The translations under genes were made by a program, and so were the position numbers. Shown piece by piece: positions 3,879 to 13,093 of a DNA stretch of 64,000 nt. Under the pieces are notes generated by a model. It ran no database searches, had not been told where the DNA came from, and worked only from the letters and a program-made list of their open reading frames with translations. Each line of letters begins with the position of its first letter. Within the stretch, counting starts at the first letter, position 1. This stretch comes from an uncultured Lentisphaeraceae bacterium (GTDB taxonomy: Bacteria; Verrucomicrobiota; Kiritimatiellia; RFP12; DVOR01): positions 62,001-126,000 of the forward strand of contig CASDPK010000001.1 in the NCBI GenBank assembly GCA_949282555.1, given 5' to 3'.

Positions 3879-3967
3879 CCACTTGTCGTTTCGGCTTTTC
3901 TTCGTGTGTGCGAGGGAACAGAACGATATCAAGGTGCGTAATGCGCTTCGGAAAGGATGGTCATCAT

Positions 3968-4599
3968 ATGAAAAGCATCATCATACTTATGGGACTCTGC
4001 ATCACCGGCATGGTCTCCGCCATCACGACAAGCTGGACACCGGTAAAGGAGGAGACGCAGATTTCCGGCAATACCGCCATTTGGACTTGGGAAAGTAATA
4101 AGGCAAACAATGGGTGCTCTTACAACGGCAATGCCGACTTCGCGATTCGCGTGACGTTCACCAATGTCACGTTACTTGAAGCCCAAAAGAACTGGAAGGC
4201 CCTTCTAGGGTTCAAAAGTGGATATGATAAGTATTCGTTCCAGAGCAACCAAAAAGGATTATGGGTTACCCAAGGAGCGACGCTTAAGCCAGATTTTTTC
4301 ACTTGGGAGGGAACAAAGAACTTCTCTGTGACGCTTGCTTATGACAATACACTCCATACATTGAAGTTTTACCTTGGGAATGAAAACATTCATACGATCT
4401 CCGATGTTACAATCGGGGATTGGGTCACCTTCGGCGTTGGAAGTGACGGCGGGGAAAACCGTCCCCTTACAGGACTTTTTCTAGTGGAACGTACAAAGTT
4501 GAATACACCAATGATATCGGCTTAGTCCCCGAACCCACCGTGTTGGCGTTGCTGGCAATGAGCATAGCAGGCCTGGCGCTTCGTCGTAAAACGATCTGA
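3968..4599 (+). CDS. PEP-CTERM-anchored secreted protein, frame interrupted
   Basis: The first frame starts at ATG 3968 (AAAGGA 10 bp before) with a signal peptide ending near ITGMVSA, and stops at TAG 4523-4525. The body is Asn/Thr-rich and beta-like with no family I recognise. Directly overlapping the stop, the next frame encodes VPEPTVLALLAMSIAGLALR plus a basic tail and stop at 4597-4599, a textbook PEP-CTERM signal: VPEP, a hydrophobic helix, then Arg/Lys. One extra T in the T5 run at 4476-4480 joins the frames and gives a smooth sequence GLFSSGTYKVEYTND before VPEP. PEP-CTERM proteins are sorted to the envelope by an exosortase; none is in this window. The break may be a sequencing error, decay, or phase variation. 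Confidence 0.72.
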
Positions 4600-4624
4600 T
4601 TTTGGCGAATTACACATTCCGCAG

Positions 4625-4658
4625 AGAGATTCCGCCCATGCGGAATCTCTTTTGTTTT
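4625..4658 (+). terminator. Terminator after the PEP-CTERM gene
   Basis: An 11-bp perfect stem AGAGATTCCGC / GCGGAATCTCT with a CCAT loop is followed by TTTGTTTT. It lies 25 bp after the PEP-CTERM stop at 4599, which supports the second frame as the true end. Confidence 0.88.
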
Positions 4659-4736: not shown

Positions 4737-4776
4737 CCCAAACAGATTTCTAACGTTTCGGAGACATCGGCATAAC
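4737..4776 (+). promoter_or_regulatory. Putative Pho box array upstream of the porin
   Basis: Four 7-bp direct repeats stand at an exact 11-bp period: CCCAAAC (ends 4743), TTCTAAC (4754), CGGAGAC (4765) and GCATAAC (4776), each separated by 4 bp. An 11-bp period is the hallmark of PhoB/PhoP sites. A -10-like GACTAT lies at 4789-4794, 12 bp after the last repeat, and no -35 hexamer is seen, as expected for an activator-dependent promoter. A second array sits before pstS. Confidence 0.72.
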
Positions 4777-4833
4777 GGAAGCTTGGGAGACTATGCGGCG
4801 TTTTTCAACCACCCAATAGGGAGAAGAGACGAA

Positions 4834-6192
4834 ATGAAACGTTGCATGACTCTGGCGATGGCGTTGCTCACGGGCGTGTGTGCCCTGGCGGCTGAGCCGA
4901 GCGACACCCCGGCCCTCGAGAAGAGCCGGCCCGTGAACTTCGACTTCGGCGGCGATTTGCGTCTGCGCTACGATGGCGCGAACAACATGCCCGACGAAAA
5001 GCACGGCGAGAAGGGCCACACCGATTATGCCCGCGTCCGCACCCGCGTGTGGGGCAAGGTGACGGCCGGCAAGCTGGAAGGCTTCCTGCGCGTGGCCGAT
5101 GAGTTCCGCTATTACCGCTCCCCCGACAAGGACAAGGGCAAGCAGCGCTTCCCCGACCAGATCTTCATCGACAACCTCTACCTGAGCTACAAAGACCTCT
5201 TTGACATGGTGGACGTGAAGGTGGGCCGTCAGGAAATGGCCTTCGGCGCCAAGCGCATCATCAGCGACGGCACCGGCGGCGACGGCTCCCGCTCGAACTA
5301 CTTCGACGCCATCCGCCTGACCTTCGACTTCGGCAACAAGCGCACCCTCGACGCCTTCGCCACCTACATGGCCCGCGAGGATTGGATGCCGACCCTGGGC
5401 GAAACCCACGACGCGAAGAGCAAGCACACCAAGGGCTATGACTACGACGTCACCGGCTACAACCACAATGAGTACGGCGCCGGCCTTTACTACCAAGACC
5501 GCTCCAACAAGGATCTCGGCTGGGACGCCTACTACGTGTGGAAGGTGGAAGACGGCGAGCACTCCAAGGTGATCGCCAAGGGCGACAACTTCCAGACCCA
5601 CACCTTCGGCGTGCGCCTGTTGCCGCGCTTCACGAAGACCCTCTCCGGTGAGCTCGAAGTCGCCGGGCAGCTCGGCGACGATTCCCTCGCGGCGGCCATG
5701 GCCTACGGCGGGCTGACGTATGCCCCGGATTGGGCGCTCAAGCCCAAGTTCACCGCGGCCGTGCAGTACATGAGCGGCGATGAGGAAGGCGCGCGCGGCG
5801 ACAACGCCTGGCACCCCGTCTTCAACCGTGAGACCGGAATCGGCGAGCTCGTGGCCCCGATGTTCAACAAGTACGCCTACAACAACTTCCTCTATCCGCA
5901 CCTGAAGGTGGACTTGGTGCCCGCGGCGAACCAAAAGCTCGCCTTCCAGACCGGCCCAATGTTCGCCCCCGTGCGTGAGGATGCCGGCAACGGCGAGAGC
6001 TACGGCACCTTCCGCGGCTACTACGCCTCGCTGAAGTACACCCTCGAAGTGGGCAAGATGATGGATTGCGAAGCGCTCAAGGGCATGGCGCTGGCCTTCA
6101 CCGGCGAGTACCTCTCCAAGGGCGATTACTTCAAGGATGATCAGGACGGCGACGCCCTCTTCGGCCGAGTGGAACTCTCCTACAAGTTCTGA
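4834..6192 (+). CDS. Outer-membrane beta-barrel porin, alginate-export-like, phosphate regulon
   Basis: The product has 452 residues with a signal peptide (MKRCMTLAMALLTGVCALAA). It ends in YKF, the terminal aromatic pattern of outer-membrane barrels, and shows alternating amphipathic strands throughout. The N-terminal run FDFGGDLRLRYDGANN and the phrase KVGRQEMAFGAKRIISD are characteristic of the alginate-export (AlgE-like) porin fold. Its place before pstS and the Pho-box array upstream suggest that it lets phosphate or phosphorylated compounds cross the outer membrane, in the way OprO/OprP or PhoE do, although it is not obviously of those families. ATG 4834 follows AGGGAG. pstS starts 89 bp downstream with its own Pho-box array. 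Confidence 0.75.
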   Translation: MKRCMTLAMALLTGVCALAAEPSDTPALEKSRPVNFDFGGDLRLRYDGANNMPDEKHGEKGHTDYARVRTRVWGKVTAGKLEGFLRVADEFRYYRSPDKDKGKQRFPDQIFIDNLYLSYKDLFDMVDVKVGRQEMAFGAKRIISDGTGGDGSRSNYFDAIRLTFDFGNKRTLDAFATYMAREDWMPTLGETHDAKSKHTKGYDYDVTGYNHNEYGAGLYYQDRSNKDLGWDAYYVWKVEDGEHSKVIAKGDNFQTHTFGVRLLPRFTKTLSGELEVAGQLGDDSLAAAMAYGGLTYAPDWALKPKFTAAVQYMSGDEEGARGDNAWHPVFNRETGIGELVAPMFNKYAYNNFLYPHLKVDLVPAANQKLAFQTGPMFAPVREDAGNGESYGTFRGYYASLKYTLEVGKMMDCEALKGMALAFTGEYLSKGDYFKDDQDGDALFGRVELSYKF

Positions 6193-6199
6193 TCCGGCG

Positions 6200-6239
6200 G
6201 CCTAACCGATTTCTAACGAATCCCAAACAAAGCCCGCAC
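6200..6239 (+). promoter_or_regulatory. Putative Pho box array upstream of pstS
   Basis: Four 7-bp direct repeats at an exact 11-bp period: GCCTAAC (ends 6206), TTCTAAC (6217), CCCAAAC (6228) and CCCGCAC (6239). Two of them are identical to repeats in the porin array. A -10-like CATACT lies at 6250-6255, 10 bp after the last repeat. In both arrays the final AC of every repeat is invariant. Confidence 0.75.
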
Positions 6240-6281
6240 GCGGCGATGCCATACTGCGGGCCATCACAAAGGAGAAATGAG

Positions 6282-7199
6282 ATGAAGACCAAGACCCTTG
6301 CGATTGCCGCCGCCCTCGTGGCCGGCCTCTGCGGCGCCGAGCGCCTCACGCTCAACGGCGCCGGGGCGTCCTTCCCCGCCCCCGTCTACCAAGTGTGGAC
6401 CTACACCTACACGCAGGCCAACCTCGGCGCCGCGGTGAACTACCAGTCCGTCGGCTCCGGCGCGGGCATCAACCAGATCAAGGCCGGCACGGTGGACTTC
6501 GCGGGCACCGATTCGCCCCTCACCGAGGCCCAGTGCAAGGAGGCCGGGCTCACGCAGTTCCCGATGCTCACGGGCGCCGTGGTGCCGATCGTCAACCTGC
6601 CGCGCGTGAAGGCCGGCCAGCTGAAGCTCTCCAACGAAACCCTCGCCAAGCTCTTCCTCGGCGAAATCACCAACTGGAACGATCCGCGCATCGCCGCCGA
6701 GAACCCCGGCGTGCGCCTGCCGAAGGATCTGCCGGTGACCGTGGTGCACCGTTCCGACAGCTCGGGCACCAGCTTCGTGTACACCAGCTGGCTCTCCTCC
6801 GTCTCGGCGGAGTGGAAGGCCAAGGTGGGCGCGGGCGCGAGCGTGAAATGGCCGGTGGGCATCGGCGGGCAGAAGAACCCCGGCGTGTGCAACAGCGTGG
6901 CCAAGGTGCGCGGCGCCATCGGCTACACGGAATACACCTACGCGCTGGAGGCCAAGCTCACCACCGTGTCCCTGAAGGACAAGGCCGGCGCCTGGCAGCA
7001 GCCCGATTCCCCCGCGTGGCCGATCCTCGGCACCACCTACATCCTCGTGCGCAACGACGCCCCCGCCGCGAAGCTTGACGCGCTGAAGGCCTACTTCCGC
7101 TGGTGCTTCAAGGATGGCGCCCCCCAGGCCACCGCCCTGCACTACACCCCCCTCGCCAAAGAGGAAGCCGACAAGGTCCTCAACGGCGTGTTGAAGTAA
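6282..7199 (+). CDS. pstS: Phosphate ABC transporter, substrate-binding protein
   Basis: The product has 305 residues and binds inorganic phosphate in the periplasm for delivery to PstCA. It has a signal peptide (MKTKTLAIAAALVAGLCGAE). The family blocks are clear: GAGASFPAPVYQVW, SVGSGAGINQI, DFAGTDSPL, HRSDSSGTSFVYTSWL and GAIGYTEYTYA. The HRSDSSGT segment supplies phosphate-binding residues. ATG 6282 follows AAAGGAG; an earlier ATG at 6246 would lie at the promoter. It heads pstS-pstC-pstA-pstB-phoU-phoB-phoR, where gaps are 29-45 bp except for one 4-bp overlap. It is somewhat shorter than the E. coli protein. Confidence 0.96.
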   Translation: MKTKTLAIAAALVAGLCGAERLTLNGAGASFPAPVYQVWTYTYTQANLGAAVNYQSVGSGAGINQIKAGTVDFAGTDSPLTEAQCKEAGLTQFPMLTGAVVPIVNLPRVKAGQLKLSNETLAKLFLGEITNWNDPRIAAENPGVRLPKDLPVTVVHRSDSSGTSFVYTSWLSSVSAEWKAKVGAGASVKWPVGIGGQKNPGVCNSVAKVRGAIGYTEYTYALEAKLTTVSLKDKAGAWQQPDSPAWPILGTTYILVRNDAPAAKLDALKAYFRWCFKDGAPQATALHYTPLAKEEADKVLNGVLK

Positions 7200-7235
7200 A
7201 CCGTGGACGGAACCGTGAATCTGCGAGGAACGAGC

Positions 7236-8174
7236 ATGAATGCGACGACGCATGAGCCCGAGACCCGACAGGGGCGCCCGTCCCTCGCGGTCGCGGCTCC
7301 GCACGCCTGCTTCGACATCTCCTTCCGGACGCTCTGCCTGATCTGCGCGGTGCTGTGCGGCCTGCTGATGGTCGCCTTCTTCGCGCAGCTGGCGCTCGCC
7401 TCCGGCGATGCGTGGCGGGCCTTTGGGCTGCGCTTCTTCGTGTCGTCGGAGTGGAACCCGGTGACGAACGTCTACGGCGCGTTGCCGGCCATCGTCGGCA
7501 CGCTGCTCACCACGGCGCTGGCGCTGGCCATCGCGCTGCCGCTGGCGTTCGTCTCGGCACTGTTCATCGTGGATGCGCCGCCGTGGCTTTCGCGCATTTT
7601 GGGGCAGGCGGTGGATCTGCTGGCGGCCATCCCCTCGATCATCTACGGCATGTGGGGCCTCTTCGTGCTCTGCCCGCTGATGCAGGAGCTGTGGTGGCGC
7701 TTTGACATCGACACCAACGGCTTCGGCGTGCTGACGGCCGCCCTGATCCTCACGCTCATGATCCTGCCCTACATCTGCGCCGTGATGCGCGACGTGCTGC
7801 GGATGACGCCGCCCATGTTGCGCGAATCGGCCTTTGGCGTGGGGTGCACGCGGTGGGAGACCGCCCGCGACATCCTCCTGCGCTATGGCATCCGCGGGCT
7901 GTTGGGCGGCGTGTTCATTGGCCTGGGGCGCGCGCTGGGCGAGACGATGGCCGTGCTCTTCGTGGCCGGCAACGTGATGGAGGTGCCCGGATCGCTCTTC
8001 GATGGGTGCACCACCATCGCCGCCACGCTGGCCAACAATTTCGCGGAGGCCGATGGGCTCCAGCGCAGCGCGCTCTTCGCGCTGGGATTGATCCTGCTGG
8101 TCATGGCGTTCGCGATTCAGGTGCTCGCGCAGTACTACCTGCGGATGACGGGCGCCAAGCGAGGTGAGAAATGA
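7236..8174 (+). CDS. pstC: Phosphate ABC transporter permease PstC
   Basis: This is an inner-membrane permease of 312 residues with about six hydrophobic helices and the EAA-type loop (TPPMLRESAFGVGCTRWETARDILL) that contacts the ATPase. IPSIIYGMWGLFVL is a conserved PstC helix. ATG 7236 follows GAGGAA by 5 bp; a GTG at 7203 in frame has no ribosome site. The stop overlaps the start of pstA by 4 bases (ATGA), implying coupled translation. The N-terminal ~30 residues are hydrophilic. Confidence 0.95.
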   Translation: MNATTHEPETRQGRPSLAVAAPHACFDISFRTLCLICAVLCGLLMVAFFAQLALASGDAWRAFGLRFFVSSEWNPVTNVYGALPAIVGTLLTTALALAIALPLAFVSALFIVDAPPWLSRILGQAVDLLAAIPSIIYGMWGLFVLCPLMQELWWRFDIDTNGFGVLTAALILTLMILPYICAVMRDVLRMTPPMLRESAFGVGCTRWETARDILLRYGIRGLLGGVFIGLGRALGETMAVLFVAGNVMEVPGSLFDGCTTIAATLANNFAEADGLQRSALFALGLILLVMAFAIQVLAQYYLRMTGAKRGEK

Positions 8175-9058
8175 AGCAGCGACCTTCCTCCCTTCCCGCC
8201 CACGGCATGCCCCTGCGCCCGCTCTGGGGCCGCAAACTTCAGGATTGGGCCGTGCAGGGCTTCTCGGTGCTGGCCCTGACGGTGGCGGTGGGCGCGATGC
8301 TGTGGATTCTGTGCACCATCGTGGCCCGCGGCAGCGAGGCCTTGGGCTGGGGCTTCCTGACCAATCCCTCCAAGCCCTACGGCCTGCCGGACGCCGGCAT
8401 CGCCAACGCCCTGCTGGGCACGCTGCTGGTGACCCTGTGCGCCGCCTTGATCGCGGTGCCCCCGGCGCTGTGCGCGGGCATTTGGCTGGCGGAGTTCGGC
8501 AAACGCTCGCGCTTGGCCGACACCCTGCGCTTCTGCGCCAACGTGATGATGGGGATGCCCTCGGTCATTGTGGGCCTCTTCGTCTACATGGCGCTGGTGG
8601 TGCCAATGGGGTGCTTCTCGGGCTTCGCCGGGTCGGTGGCGCTGGCCATCCTGATGTTCCCCGTGGTCATGCGCACCACCGAGGATATGCTGGCGATGGT
8701 GCCCGACACGTTGCGCGAATCGGGGCTGGCCCTCGGCCTCACCCGCTGCCGCGTGACGCTCCAAATCATCTGCCGCGCCGCCCGCAACGGCATGGTCACG
8801 GGCGTGCTCCTCTCCGTGGCGCGCGTCTCGGGCGAAACGGCCCCGCTGCTCTTCACCGCCCTCTTCGCCGACGCTTGGCCCACGCGCTTTTTCTCCGGCC
8901 CCACGGCCAACGTCCCCGTGCTCATCACGGAATACGCCACGAACTCCCCCTTCGAGGCCATGCACCGCGCCGGCTGGGGCGCCGCCCTCGTCATCGCGCT
9001 GCTGGTGCTGGCGGTGAACCTCGTGGCGCGCATCCTCTTCCGTGAGCGGAAAGCCTGA
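8171..9058 (+). CDS. pstA: Phosphate ABC transporter permease PstA
   Basis: The product has 295 residues and about six membrane helices, and pairs with PstC to form the phosphate channel. The EAA loop is [20 protein letters not shown], and [17 protein letters not shown] is the family helix equivalent to that of PstC. The segment [17 protein letters not shown] is typical of PstA. The start overlaps the pstC stop (ATGA at 8171-8174). Confidence 0.95.
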
Positions 9059-9093: not shown

Positions 9094-9867
9094 ATGGACA
9101 CTTCGACGCCAAACATCAAAATCCGCGCCCGCAACCTCTCCTTCTTCTACGAAGGGGGCCATCAGGCGCTCTTCGAGAACAACCTCGACATCCCCGAACG
9201 CCAAGTCACGGCGGTGATCGGCCCCTCCGGGTGCGGCAAGTCCACCCACCTGCGCACCTACAACCGCATCTACTCCCTCCACCGCGGACAGCGCGCCGAG
9301 GGCGAGGTGCTCTTGGACGGCGAGAACATCCTTGACCCCAAGACGGACCTCTTGGCCCTCCGCCGCCGCGTGGGCATGATCTTCCAAAAGCCCACGCCCT
9401 TCCCCATGAGCGTCTTTGACAACGTGGCCTATCCCTTGCGCCTCCACTTCCGCCTCTCCCGGCGCGAGATCGAGGAGCGCGTCGAGGCCGCCCTCACCGG
9501 CGCCAGCCTGTGGGACGAGGTGAAAGACCAGCTCCGCCGCTCCGGCTTGGCCCTCTCCGGCGGGCAACAACAGCGCCTCTGCATCGCCCGCGCCATCGCC
9601 GCCGAGCCCGAAGTGCTCCTGATGGACGAGCCCACCAGCGCCATTGACCCGGTGGCCACGCTCAAGATCGAAGACCTCGTGCTCCGTTTGCGCGAGCGTT
9701 TCACCATCGTCATCGTCACCCACAACATGCAACAGGCCGCCCGCATCAGCGACCGCACCGCCTTCTTCTACAAAGGCCGCATCGTGGAAGTGGGCGACAC
9801 CAAGCAGATCTTCACCGCCCCCCGCGAAAAGCAGACCGAGGATTACATCACCGGCCGCTTCGGATGA
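9094..9867 (+). CDS. pstB: Phosphate ABC transporter ATP-binding protein
   Basis: The product has 257 residues and powers phosphate import at the inner face of the membrane. Walker A (GPSGCGKST), Q-loop ([17 protein letters not shown]), signature [16 protein letters not shown], Walker B ([12 protein letters not shown]) and the switch His (VTHNMQQA) are all intact. The [12 protein letters not shown] phrase is diagnostic of PstB. No clear ribosome site precedes ATG 9094, so translation may depend on coupling with pstA, 35 bp upstream. Confidence 0.97.
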
Positions 9868-9896
9868 TCCCGGGAAGCCGACACAAAGGAACCGCC

Positions 9897-10562
9897 ATGC
9901 GAGACCGTTTTACCTACGAGATCGAGGTGCTCAAGCAGCGCCTGCTCGACCTTGCCACCTCCACCGAGCGCGCCTTGGTGCGCGCCATCCGCGCCGTCGA
10001 TGGCGCCCAGGCCGACGATGCCCGCGCCGTCATTGCCGAGGACAGCCGGATCGACGGCGCCGAAGTCGCCATCGAGGAGGAGTGCCTCAAGCTGATGGCT
10101 CTCTATCAGCCCGTCGCCGGAGACCTCCGCACCCTCGTCACCGTCCTGAAGATCAACGGCGAATTGGAACGCGCCGCCGACCTCGCGGCAAACATCGCCG
10201 CCCGCGCCATCGACATGGCCGAACACCCCGTCCAGCCCGCCGACCGGTGCGACTTCTCGCCGATGGTGACCCGCGCCCACAAGATGCTCCGCGGCGCGCT
10301 CGACGCCTTCGTCTGCCACCGTTCCGACCTCGCCCGGAAGATCCTGTTGGAAGACGACGCGGTGGACGCCCTCAACGCCGCCCACTATGCCGACGCCGTC
10401 GAAAGGCTCTTGAAAAAGCCCGAGCAGGCGCGCTACACTCTCTCCTGCATCACCGTGTCGCATGCCATCGAACGCATCGCCGACATCGCCACCAACATCT
10501 GCGAGGACGTCATCTACCTTGAGGAAGGCCAGATCGTCCGCCACATGGCGCGGGAAGGCTGA
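9897..10562 (+). CDS. phoU: Phosphate transport regulator PhoU
   Basis: The product has 221 residues, all helical, with two PhoU repeats that each form a three-helix bundle. The metal-binding E/D-rich motif is seen in the first repeat (residues ~40-60, around EDSRIDGAEVAIEEECLKLM) and near the end (AIERIADIATNICEDVIYL). PhoU links the Pst transporter to the PhoR kinase and keeps the regulon silent when phosphate is ample. ATG 9897 follows AAAGGA; pstB ends 29 bp upstream. Confidence 0.95.
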   Translation: MRDRFTYEIEVLKQRLLDLATSTERALVRAIRAVDGAQADDARAVIAEDSRIDGAEVAIEEECLKLMALYQPVAGDLRTLVTVLKINGELERAADLAANIAARAIDMAEHPVQPADRCDFSPMVTRAHKMLRGALDAFVCHRSDLARKILLEDDAVDALNAAHYADAVERLLKKPEQARYTLSCITVSHAIERIADIATNICEDVIYLEEGQIVRHMAREG

Positions 10563-10607: not shown

Positions 10608-11285
10608 ATGCCCAACATGATTCTGATCGCCGAGGACGAAGAGGCCATCCGCGAGCTCATCCGCATCAACCTTTCCGCCAACGGCTTCGCCTGCGATGAG
10701 GCGGAGGACGGCCTCCAGGCCCTCACTCGCGCCAAGGCCGCCAAGCCGGACCTCATTTTGCTCGACTGGATGCTCCCGGGATTGGATGGGCTCGGCGTGC
10801 TCCGCCGCCTGAAAGCCGATTCCGACCTCGCCGCCGTCCCCGTGATCATGCTCACGGCCAAGGGCGAAGAGAGCGACATCGTGCTGGGGCTCGAGATGGG
10901 CGCGGCGGACTACGTCACCAAACCCTTCAGCAACAAGGTGCTCGTGGCCCGCATCCGCGCCCAGCTCCGCCGGGGCGAGGAGGAACCCACCGAGGAAATC
11001 ATCCGCTACGCCTCCCTCACCCTCCTGCCCGGCCAACGCCGTGCCACCCTCGGCAACGAAGAGCTCTCCCTCACCTGCGGGGAGTTCGATCTGCTCGCCC
11101 TGCTCTGCGCCCGCCCCGGCCACGTCTACACCCGGAGCCAGATCGTCGCCCGCACCAAAGGCGACGACTACCCCGTCACCGACCGCGCCGTCGATGTCCA
11201 AGTCGTCAGCCTCCGCCGCAAACTCGGAGCCTTCGGCGAACGTCTCGAGACCGTCCGCGGCGTCGGCTACCGGATGCGCGGCTGA
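10608..11285 (+). CDS. phoB: Phosphate regulon response regulator
   Basis: The product is a 225-residue OmpR/PhoB-type regulator. The receiver domain (residues ~1-118) has the acidic pair (AEDEE), phospho-acceptor Asp53 in LLDWMLPG, the Thr in MLTAKG and the Lys in TKPF. The winged-helix DNA-binding domain (~residues 130-225) includes LTCGEFDLLALLCARPGHVYTR and VDVQVVSLRRKLG. Phosphorylated by PhoR, it should bind the 11-bp-period repeats upstream of the porin and pstS. ATG 10608 has GAAGGGA in front. Confidence 0.93.
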   Translation: MPNMILIAEDEEAIRELIRINLSANGFACDEAEDGLQALTRAKAAKPDLILLDWMLPGLDGLGVLRRLKADSDLAAVPVIMLTAKGEESDIVLGLEMGAADYVTKPFSNKVLVARIRAQLRRGEEEPTEEIIRYASLTLLPGQRRATLGNEELSLTCGEFDLLALLCARPGHVYTRSQIVARTKGDDYPVTDRAVDVQVVSLRRKLGAFGERLETVRGVGYRMRG

Positions 11286-11329
11286 TCCGCCACCCCTTTC
11301 CTCTGTCCCCTCTGCCCCACCTGCTCCCC

Positions 11330-13093
11330 ATGAAACACCGCGACCTTATCCTTCTAGCGCTCCCCGTGAGCATCCTTGCCCTTGTGGCCCTTGCCGTGGG
11401 GCTGCTGGTGGTGCAGTTCCGCGCCTTCGAGCGCTCCTACATGGACGATGCGCGGGAGAACCTCGCCCAGCGCACCCGCTTCATCGCCGAATTGCTCCTG
11501 CCCGACCTCCGGCGCGGCGACGTTGCCTCCGTGGCGAAGCGGATCGACTTCTTCCGCGGCAAGCCACTGCGCATCACGGTCATTGACGCAAAGGGCACCG
11601 TCGTGGCCGATTCCGACGCCAACGCCTCGCGCCTCGCCAACCATGCCGACCGCCCGGAGGTGGCCGACCCCGCGGAACCCGATGGCTTCGTGACCCGCTA
11701 CTCCGTGACGATGCACGCCTGGCTCCTCTATCACGCCATCCGCGAAGAAGGCTGGACCATCCGCGCCTCGTTGCCCATGTCCGCCGTCGGCGGCGCCGTC
11801 AGCCAAGTGCGCCTCACCGTTGCGCTCGCGCTGTTGTTGGGCGCGGGGCTTGCCGGCGGCGTGGCGCTCTACCTCTTCCTGCGGGTGCGCCCGCACTTCA
11901 ACGCCCTCCAAAACTCCGCCGTCGCCATCGCCCGCGGCCGTTTGGAGACGCCCATCAGCGTGCCCCACGTCGGCCCCCTGCGCGAATTGTCCAAGGCCGT
12001 CGCGGTCATGGCCCGCCAGCTCCGCAGCCGCATTGACGACCTCCGCCGCGAGCGCAACGAGTTCGACGCGCTCTTCAACGCCCTGCGCGAACCCCTCCTC
12101 CTCGTCTCCCACACCGGCGAAGTGCTCTCCTCCAACCGTGCCGCCGCCCGCCTCTTCGGCGAAGCGATCCGTCGGCCCGGCTTCCGCATCGAGCGCACCG
12201 TCTGCCCCGAACTCGTGGCCTACGTCCGCAACGCCTTCGAGGCCCCCACGCTCCACGGCCGCGAAATCCCCTTCGATGATGGTGGCACGCCCCGTTCGCT
12301 CTTGGCCCACGCCGTGCGCATGGAGCGCGAAGGCACCCTTTGCATCCTCCTGTTGCTGACCGATCTCACCGACCTCCGCCGCTTGGAGGGCTTCCGCACC
12401 GACTTCGTGGCCAACGTCTCCCACGAGATCAAGACCCCGCTCACGGCCATCCTCTCCACCGTCGAAACCCTCACCGACACCCCGCTGGATGATGGCGGCC
12501 GCGCCAAATGCCTGGAAATCCTCGCCCGTCAGGCCCGCCGACTCAACGACCTCGTGCAGGACATCCTTTCCCTTGCCGCCATCGAGCGCCGCCAGACCGC
12601 GGCCCCGGAAGACTTCGCCCCCGTGCGTTTGGATGCCGTGGCCGCCGATGCCTTGGCCCTTTGCCAAGATGAGGCCGAACGCGCCGGCGTGACCCTCACC
12701 CTCTCCCCCGAAACGCTCCCGGCCCTCTCCGTGAAGGGCGACGCCCGGCTTTTGGAGCAATCCGTCGTCAATCTCATCGGCAACGCCCTGCGCCACTCCG
12801 GCAGCCCGACGGTTGAGATCGGCCTGCGGCGCGAGGGCTCCGACGCCCTCCTCACCGTCCGCGACGAAGGATGCGGCATCGCCGCCGAAGATCAGCCCCG
12901 CCTCTTTGAGCGCTTCTACCGCGTCCACAAAGACCGTTCCCGCGAAAAGGGCGGCACCGGCCTGGGCCTGGCCATCGTCAAACATATCGCCCTGCTCCAC
13001 CGCGGCATGGTCGATGTCGTCTCCGCCCCCGGGCAAGGCGCCTGCTTCACCCTCCGCCTCCCGCTGGCCAATCCATCCGCGCAGAACGCCTGA
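11330..13093 (+). CDS. phoR: Phosphate regulon sensor histidine kinase
   Basis: The product is a 587-residue membrane histidine kinase. Order: helix (residues ~8-27), a ~130-residue periplasmic region, a second helix (~165-185), HAMP, a PAS domain (~residues 240-340), HisKA with phospho-acceptor His365 in [12 protein letters not shown], and HATPase with N box [11 protein letters not shown]1 DEGCGIA and G2 [12 protein letters not shown]. The HAMP-PAS-HisKA order and the position after phoB fit PhoR. The sizeable periplasmic loop differs from E. coli PhoR, which has almost none, and resembles the Gram-positive PhoR layout. It is the last gene of the phosphate cluster. Confidence 0.93.

Follow-up and report, generated by a model that had tools for sequence, protein, structure and literature searches.

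What is the function of four short words, repeated at exact steps of 11 bp, that precede a porin gene in the genome of an uncultured gut Kiritimatiellota bacterium? The question concerns positions 4737-4776 of the window, that is, the whole stretch of 64,000 nucleotides (64 kb) analysed here. Our answer, drawn from comparative sequence analysis, is that these words very probably form the docking site of the phosphate-starvation regulator PhoB, and we estimate at roughly 0.9 the probability that the array serves as operator in a promoter activated by PhoB. The sequence-level support lies in the repeat itself, in how well it is conserved and how constantly it is spaced from a conserved -10 element, in the genes that follow, and in the linkage to phoBR. 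The porin promoter region contains the following elements:

4623-4652, + strand: putative terminator-like hairpin of the preceding gene, of a kind no commoner than in shuffled sequence
4737-4743, + strand: candidate Pho-box unit 1, CCCAAAC, as read in the letters; columns 1-5 of the aligned motif
4748-4754, + strand: candidate unit 2, TTCTAAC, the best conserved of this array
4759-4765, + strand: candidate unit 3, CGGAGAC, the weakest, with the A alone invariant among relatives
4770-4776, + strand: candidate unit 4, GCATAAC, occupying the place of a -35 element
4784-4792, + strand: extended -10 element TGG-GAGACT (consensus TGcGATACT), conserved columns 46-54, its hexamer 10 bp past unit 4

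The sequence-only reading had given these four heptamers, their coordinates and the exact 11-bp steps correctly, letter for letter. Direct repeats of 7-bp units with 4-bp spacers, of which at least two make a Pho box, are the format of PhoB and PhoP operators (PMC4415409, PMC4832192). The hairpin may close the preceding gene and so separate it from the porin promoter. That gene (3908-4600) is seemingly frameshifted near 4470-4490, either by an assembly error or in reality: Its open reading frame stops at 4525, and the other frame runs on to 4600 as ...SGTYKVEYTNDIGLVPEPTVLALLAMSIAGLALRRKTI, a PEP-CTERM-like sorting signal.

The genes downstream constitute a complete pst-pho operon, in which the porin is followed by pstSCAB-phoU-phoBR in an order conserved in relatives, and a second array stands before pstS:

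4834-6192, + strand: outer-membrane porin gene, a beta-barrel of the Alginate_exp family (PF13372), with orthologs before pstS in most relatives
6200-6239, + strand: second four-unit candidate Pho array, with GCCTAAC (6200-6206), TTCTAAC (6211-6217), CCCAAAC (6222-6228) and CCCGCAC (6233-6239)
6247-6255, + strand: extended -10 element TGC-CATACT of the pstS promoter, its hexamer 10 bp past unit 4
6282-7199, + strand: pstS, phosphate-binding protein (TIGR00975)
7203-8174, + strand: pstC (TIGR02138)
8171-9058, + strand: pstA (TIGR00974)
9094-9867, + strand: pstB (TIGR00972)
9894-10562, + strand: phoU (TIGR02135)
10608-11285, + strand: phoB, response regulator of OmpR/PhoB type and the protein proposed to bind the array
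11330-13093, + strand: phoR, sensor histidine kinase

Over the eight units of both arrays, the counts offered earlier also hold: All eight end in AC, six have A before it and six have C at position 3. The PhoB/PhoR pair is encoded within the same cluster (10608-13093), its PhoB being best matched by the TIGR02154 model at 236 bits, below that curated equivalog's cut-off of 296, a point against the operator reading; a close ortholog of this PhoB is present in 15 of the 17 genomes of the genus.

The array is conserved in relatives. Gibbs sampling of 25 regions upstream of porin and pstS genes, taken from 15 relatives and the source genome, with a 62-bp sampling width and no period preset, returned a single gapless motif of 62 columns, which remained gapless under MAFFT alignment. 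This motif has a near-invariant A at columns 4, 15, 26 and 37, reproducing the 11-bp period, and the extended -10 sequence TGcgATACT at columns 46-54, in which T46, A50 and T54 are invariant. Because porin and pstS sites align in one register, unit 4 lies 10 bp ahead of the -10 element in both promoters (columns 39-48), a distance that is fixed before the orthologous genes of relatives. The array therefore takes the position of the -35 element, about 10 bp ahead of a -10 element of sigma-70 type; as expected for a promoter lacking a -35 element, a consensus promoter scan found no sigma-70 promoter at the array site. The most divergent sites, those before pstS in loci L045 and L047, fit the motif more poorly and may have been placed one unit off. 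In two other loci (L032 of genome G016 and L033 of genome G004) the pstS array is lost, and the cluster must therefore depend on the porin promoter. In principle, the same operator could serve to repress the porin, since Pho operators can repress some genes, as in Streptomyces. This is very unlikely here, given that the placement is that of activated promoters: Just as at pstS, unit 4 stands in the position of a -35 element, and the extended -10 element follows after 10 bp.

Could the repeat nevertheless be a chance run of AC dinucleotides, or a mere side effect of core-promoter conservation? Taken alone, a run of four bare ACs at 11-bp steps would be no great surprise, and unit 3 matches poorly. 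However, on both strands of the window four ACs at this period occur at exactly two sites, the porin and pstS arrays, each with at least three AAC; the periods 8, 9, 10 and 12 yield two to nine such runs each, and none with three AAC was found at periods 8-10 and 12-14. A 42-column matrix built from 21 sites of relatives, excluding those of the source genome, scores 33.9 at 4739 (porin) and 34.6 at 6202 (pstS). The runner-up in the window, at 10.8, is the pstS array read one unit out of register, followed by a score of 6.0; in 60 Markov-shuffled versions of the whole window the maximum was 16.9. As a point against a PhoB operator, the same matrix detected no array at the phosphodiesterase-like gene at 1075-2028 of the window. 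A search of the source genome with a plain pattern of three TAAC at period 11, allowing one mismatch, showed no enrichment over the reversed control (5 vs. 14) and was abandoned in favor of the matrix; it is thus the full matrix, together with context, that confers specificity. An accidental origin is contradicted further by the genome-wide ranking and by the periodicity in other families, both presented below, and we give it almost no weight.

The genome-wide distribution of the motif accords with a phosphate regulon. With a model of 20 sites from relatives, the source genome being left out, exactly three matches at E≤10 were obtained in its 2.4 Mb: the pstS array first (9.7e-10), the porin array second (1.5e-8) and, third (0.16), a site 40 bp before a gene for a Na/Pi cotransporter (PF02690). 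The array consequently precedes phosphate-acquisition genes and is enriched there across the genome. Elsewhere in the genus, cotransporter genes and second copies of the porin have further sites upstream; in all 13 cotransporter upstream regions checked in the genus an array is present, and each beats all 200 shuffles for a three-unit array. A scan of 115 genomes from the order gave 39 sites at E≤1e-3, 20 of which are the training sites; among the remaining 19, for 18 of which the downstream gene was examined, 16 precede porin, pstS or Na/Pi-cotransporter genes, two of these 16 (in G086) being near-identical to training sites in G095. The sequence-only reading had proposed precisely this kind of analysis, a matrix, a scan of relatives and a search for enrichment before phosphate genes, and its outcome supports Pho-type operator arrays before both porin and pstS.

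The other two non-training sites precede different genes. One (L159, G009:C20:5591-5640; E 2.8e-4) lies 11 bp before a gene for a fused acyltransferase with Acyltransf_2 and Acetyltransf_5 domains, resembling the ornithine-lipid synthase OlsF, and suggests a phosphate-controlled replacement of membrane lipids. Its ortholog in the source genome (G000:C47:5036) has no array, and the OlsF-like acyltransferase is accordingly not counted among the targets there. The other (L200, G084:C42:2743-2790; E 1.5e-4) lies before a gene for a small zinc-ribbon membrane protein.

Gene arrangement varies in some relatives. Separate second porin genes outside the pst cluster bear a Pho array in G008 (L154, G008:C6) and G007 (L156, G007:C6), two genomes in which no porin was found ahead of the pst cluster. 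In G016 (L155/L062, G016:C9:784-4844), phoBR is located outside the pst cluster and phoB closely precedes the Na/Pi cotransporter gene, which has a Pho array of its own. Genome G004 encodes two PhoB-like regulators (G004:C154:6344 and G004:C173:9399), with 59% and 77% identity to the source PhoB, and no close Na/Pi cotransporter was detectable in it.

How peculiar to this lineage is the word that the array repeats? Over 80 units of the genus the consensus is (C)-C-T-A-A-C-(G/A), or nCTAAC(G/A)n4, with the second A in 99% and the last C in 85% of the units. The word YCCTAAC put forward by the sequence-only reading is therefore sound in its CTAAC core, its YC at positions 1-2 being weak among these units. 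It had also been considered a consensus of this lineage distinct from those of other phyla, as its difference from the E. coli word might suggest; in the open-access literature searched, moreover, we found no description of a Pho operator for Kiritimatiellota or Verrucomicrobia, nor of CTAAC Pho boxes. Yet when 66 phoB-bearing loci outside the genus were scanned with the unit core derived from it, 40 of them reached a three-unit score of at least 16 at period 11, and each of the other periods in the range 7 to 16 gave at most 4; with the threshold raised to 18, period 11 yielded 51 arrays and periods 9, 10, 12 and 13 yielded none. Of these arrays, 35 fall within 400 bp upstream of pst or pho genes, a zone covering 5% of the sequence (binomial p 7e-34, a figure that assumes independent loci, an assumption that related genomes violate), and several others precede a long pstC or other genes missed by the definition of the zone. 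The loci belong to Opitutales, Victivallaceae, Desulfobacterota and others, with matches equal in quality to those of the lineage itself; their taxa are taken from record titles, mostly of metagenome bins, in which single labels may be wrong. Given also the similar CTTAACCT of cyanobacteria (PMC1906773), the word is not restricted to this lineage. The array would rather be an ordinary kind of Pho switch, the exact word of which we did not find described for this group, yet which proves common to several phyla. In two Desulfosarcina-like loci, L113 (3789, 3874) and L116 (3884, 3971), a long pstC has two separate arrays upstream, some 85 bp from each other.

The protein side offers a possible counterpart to the word. 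In E. coli PhoB, Arg201 bonds a guanine in the DNA complex, according to a paper that cites the crystal structure (PMC3973317). The source PhoB and those of the loci from other phyla retain the residues corresponding to Arg193, Val197, Arg203, Thr217 and Arg219 of the E. coli protein. At the Arg201 position the source PhoB has Ser, replaced by Asn or Thr in near relatives; the PhoBs of the loci variously carry Ser, Asn, Gly, Ala or Thr there, with Val at the Arg200 position in nearly all. The recognition helix of the loci reads VTDR(A/S)(V/I)DVQ-x-x-x-LR(R/K)KL, where conservation of the stretch covered by the seed is partly due to selection, as the loci were found with seeds including DDYPVTDR; positions 194-204 lie outside that seed. 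The absence of the G from the operator word fits the replacement of Arg201 by a small or polar residue. It might be argued that a different response regulator of the OmpR family, rather than the local PhoB, binds the repeats and co-regulates these genes, considering that members of this family all read direct repeats of about this period (PMC4832192) and that the nearest solved structures for the source PhoB are proteins of MtrA, RegX3 and PhoP type. This is unlikely, because the arrays stand before pst and pho genes, often phoB itself, in several phyla, phoB lies within the cluster, and the changed residue of the recognition helix fits the changed word. Returning to PhoB as the ligand, we tentatively suggest, with somewhat less than even confidence, that CTAAC arrays throughout the PVC group and Desulfobacterota are read by a large PhoB subfamily which has the helix VTDR(A/S)(V/I)DVQ(I/V/M)(V/L)(N/S/G/A/T)LR and lacks Arg201. 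Were this true, CTAAC/TTAACC would be a widespread and possibly ancestral Pho code, and the CTGTCAT of E. coli would be a derived form linked to the acquisition of Arg200/Arg201.

Comparison with known systems places the array in context. The PhoP boxes of Bacillus subtilis are TTAACA-like and share a TAACA core with the units described here; the difference from this type stressed by the sequence-only reading thus amounts to only about one base, the Bacillus word being that of the reading itself and of general knowledge. The claimed difference from E. coli was right, for the boxes are not of CTGTCAT type, with a G read by Arg201: The word is nCTAAC(G/A), in four units at both promoters of the window, and Val and Ser, Asn or Thr replace Arg200 and Arg201. 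In other respects the likeness to E. coli is close, since its PhoB-activated promoters (pstS, phoA, phoE and phoB) have 7+4-bp repeats of period 11 which replace the -35 element and sit 10 bp before the -10 element (PMC1906773, PMC4415409), and the targets are equally a phosphate porin (predicted here), the pst operon and phoBR; the porin, unlike PhoE, is of the Alginate_exp family. The boxes of cyanobacterial SphR, a PhoB-type regulator, consist of CTTAACCT in at least three tandem copies with a 3-bp linker (PMC1906773), and are nearly identical in their TTAAC/CTAAC core and 11-bp period; they differ in having C after AAC, where G or A is found here, C instead of T before TAAC is common here, and phylum and target set are different. 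Streptomyces coelicolor PhoP boxes have the same period and 7+4 layout, in 11-bp units with GTTCACC in the place of CTAAC (PMC4832192, PMC4415409). The PhoB box of Desulfovibrio vulgaris, (c/t)GT(n)AC with a 4-bp spacer (PMC3333781), is likewise a direct repeat ending in AC, but has a 6-bp repeat with a GTnAC word, whereas the other Desulfobacterota PhoBs examined go with CTAAC arrays.

A coherent mechanism can be proposed on these grounds, in which PhoB binding, activation, the response to phosphate and the passage of phosphate through the porin are all predictions. Under phosphate starvation, PhoR would phosphorylate PhoB, both specified by the last genes of the cluster. In its phosphorylated form PhoB would then line up along a single face of the DNA, two dimers in tandem covering the four direct repeats of 11 bp in head-to-tail order. 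The models for this are E. coli PhoB and the PhoP of Mycobacterium tuberculosis, the latter of which binds three- and four-unit arrays more tightly (PMC4832192, PMC4415409). From unit 4, PhoB would hold the sigma factor at a promoter that lacks a -35 element and has the extended -10 element (TGnGATACT) 10 bp downstream, and thereby switch the porin on. The similarly built promoter before pstS would drive pstSCAB-phoU-phoBR, and the third array of the genome the Na/Pi cotransporter. The porin would pass phosphate through the outer membrane for import by Pst and the cotransporter, until restored phosphate turned the system off via PhoU and PhoR.

For these uncultured Kiritimatiellota of animal guts, the array provides a tested definition of the phosphate-starvation regulon that can be applied genome-wide, comprising the porin, the pst-pho operon and the Na/Pi cotransporter. 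In the wider family of PhoB regulators, the paired change of a residue (Arg201) and of the operator word across phyla renders the rules of PhoB recognition directly testable.
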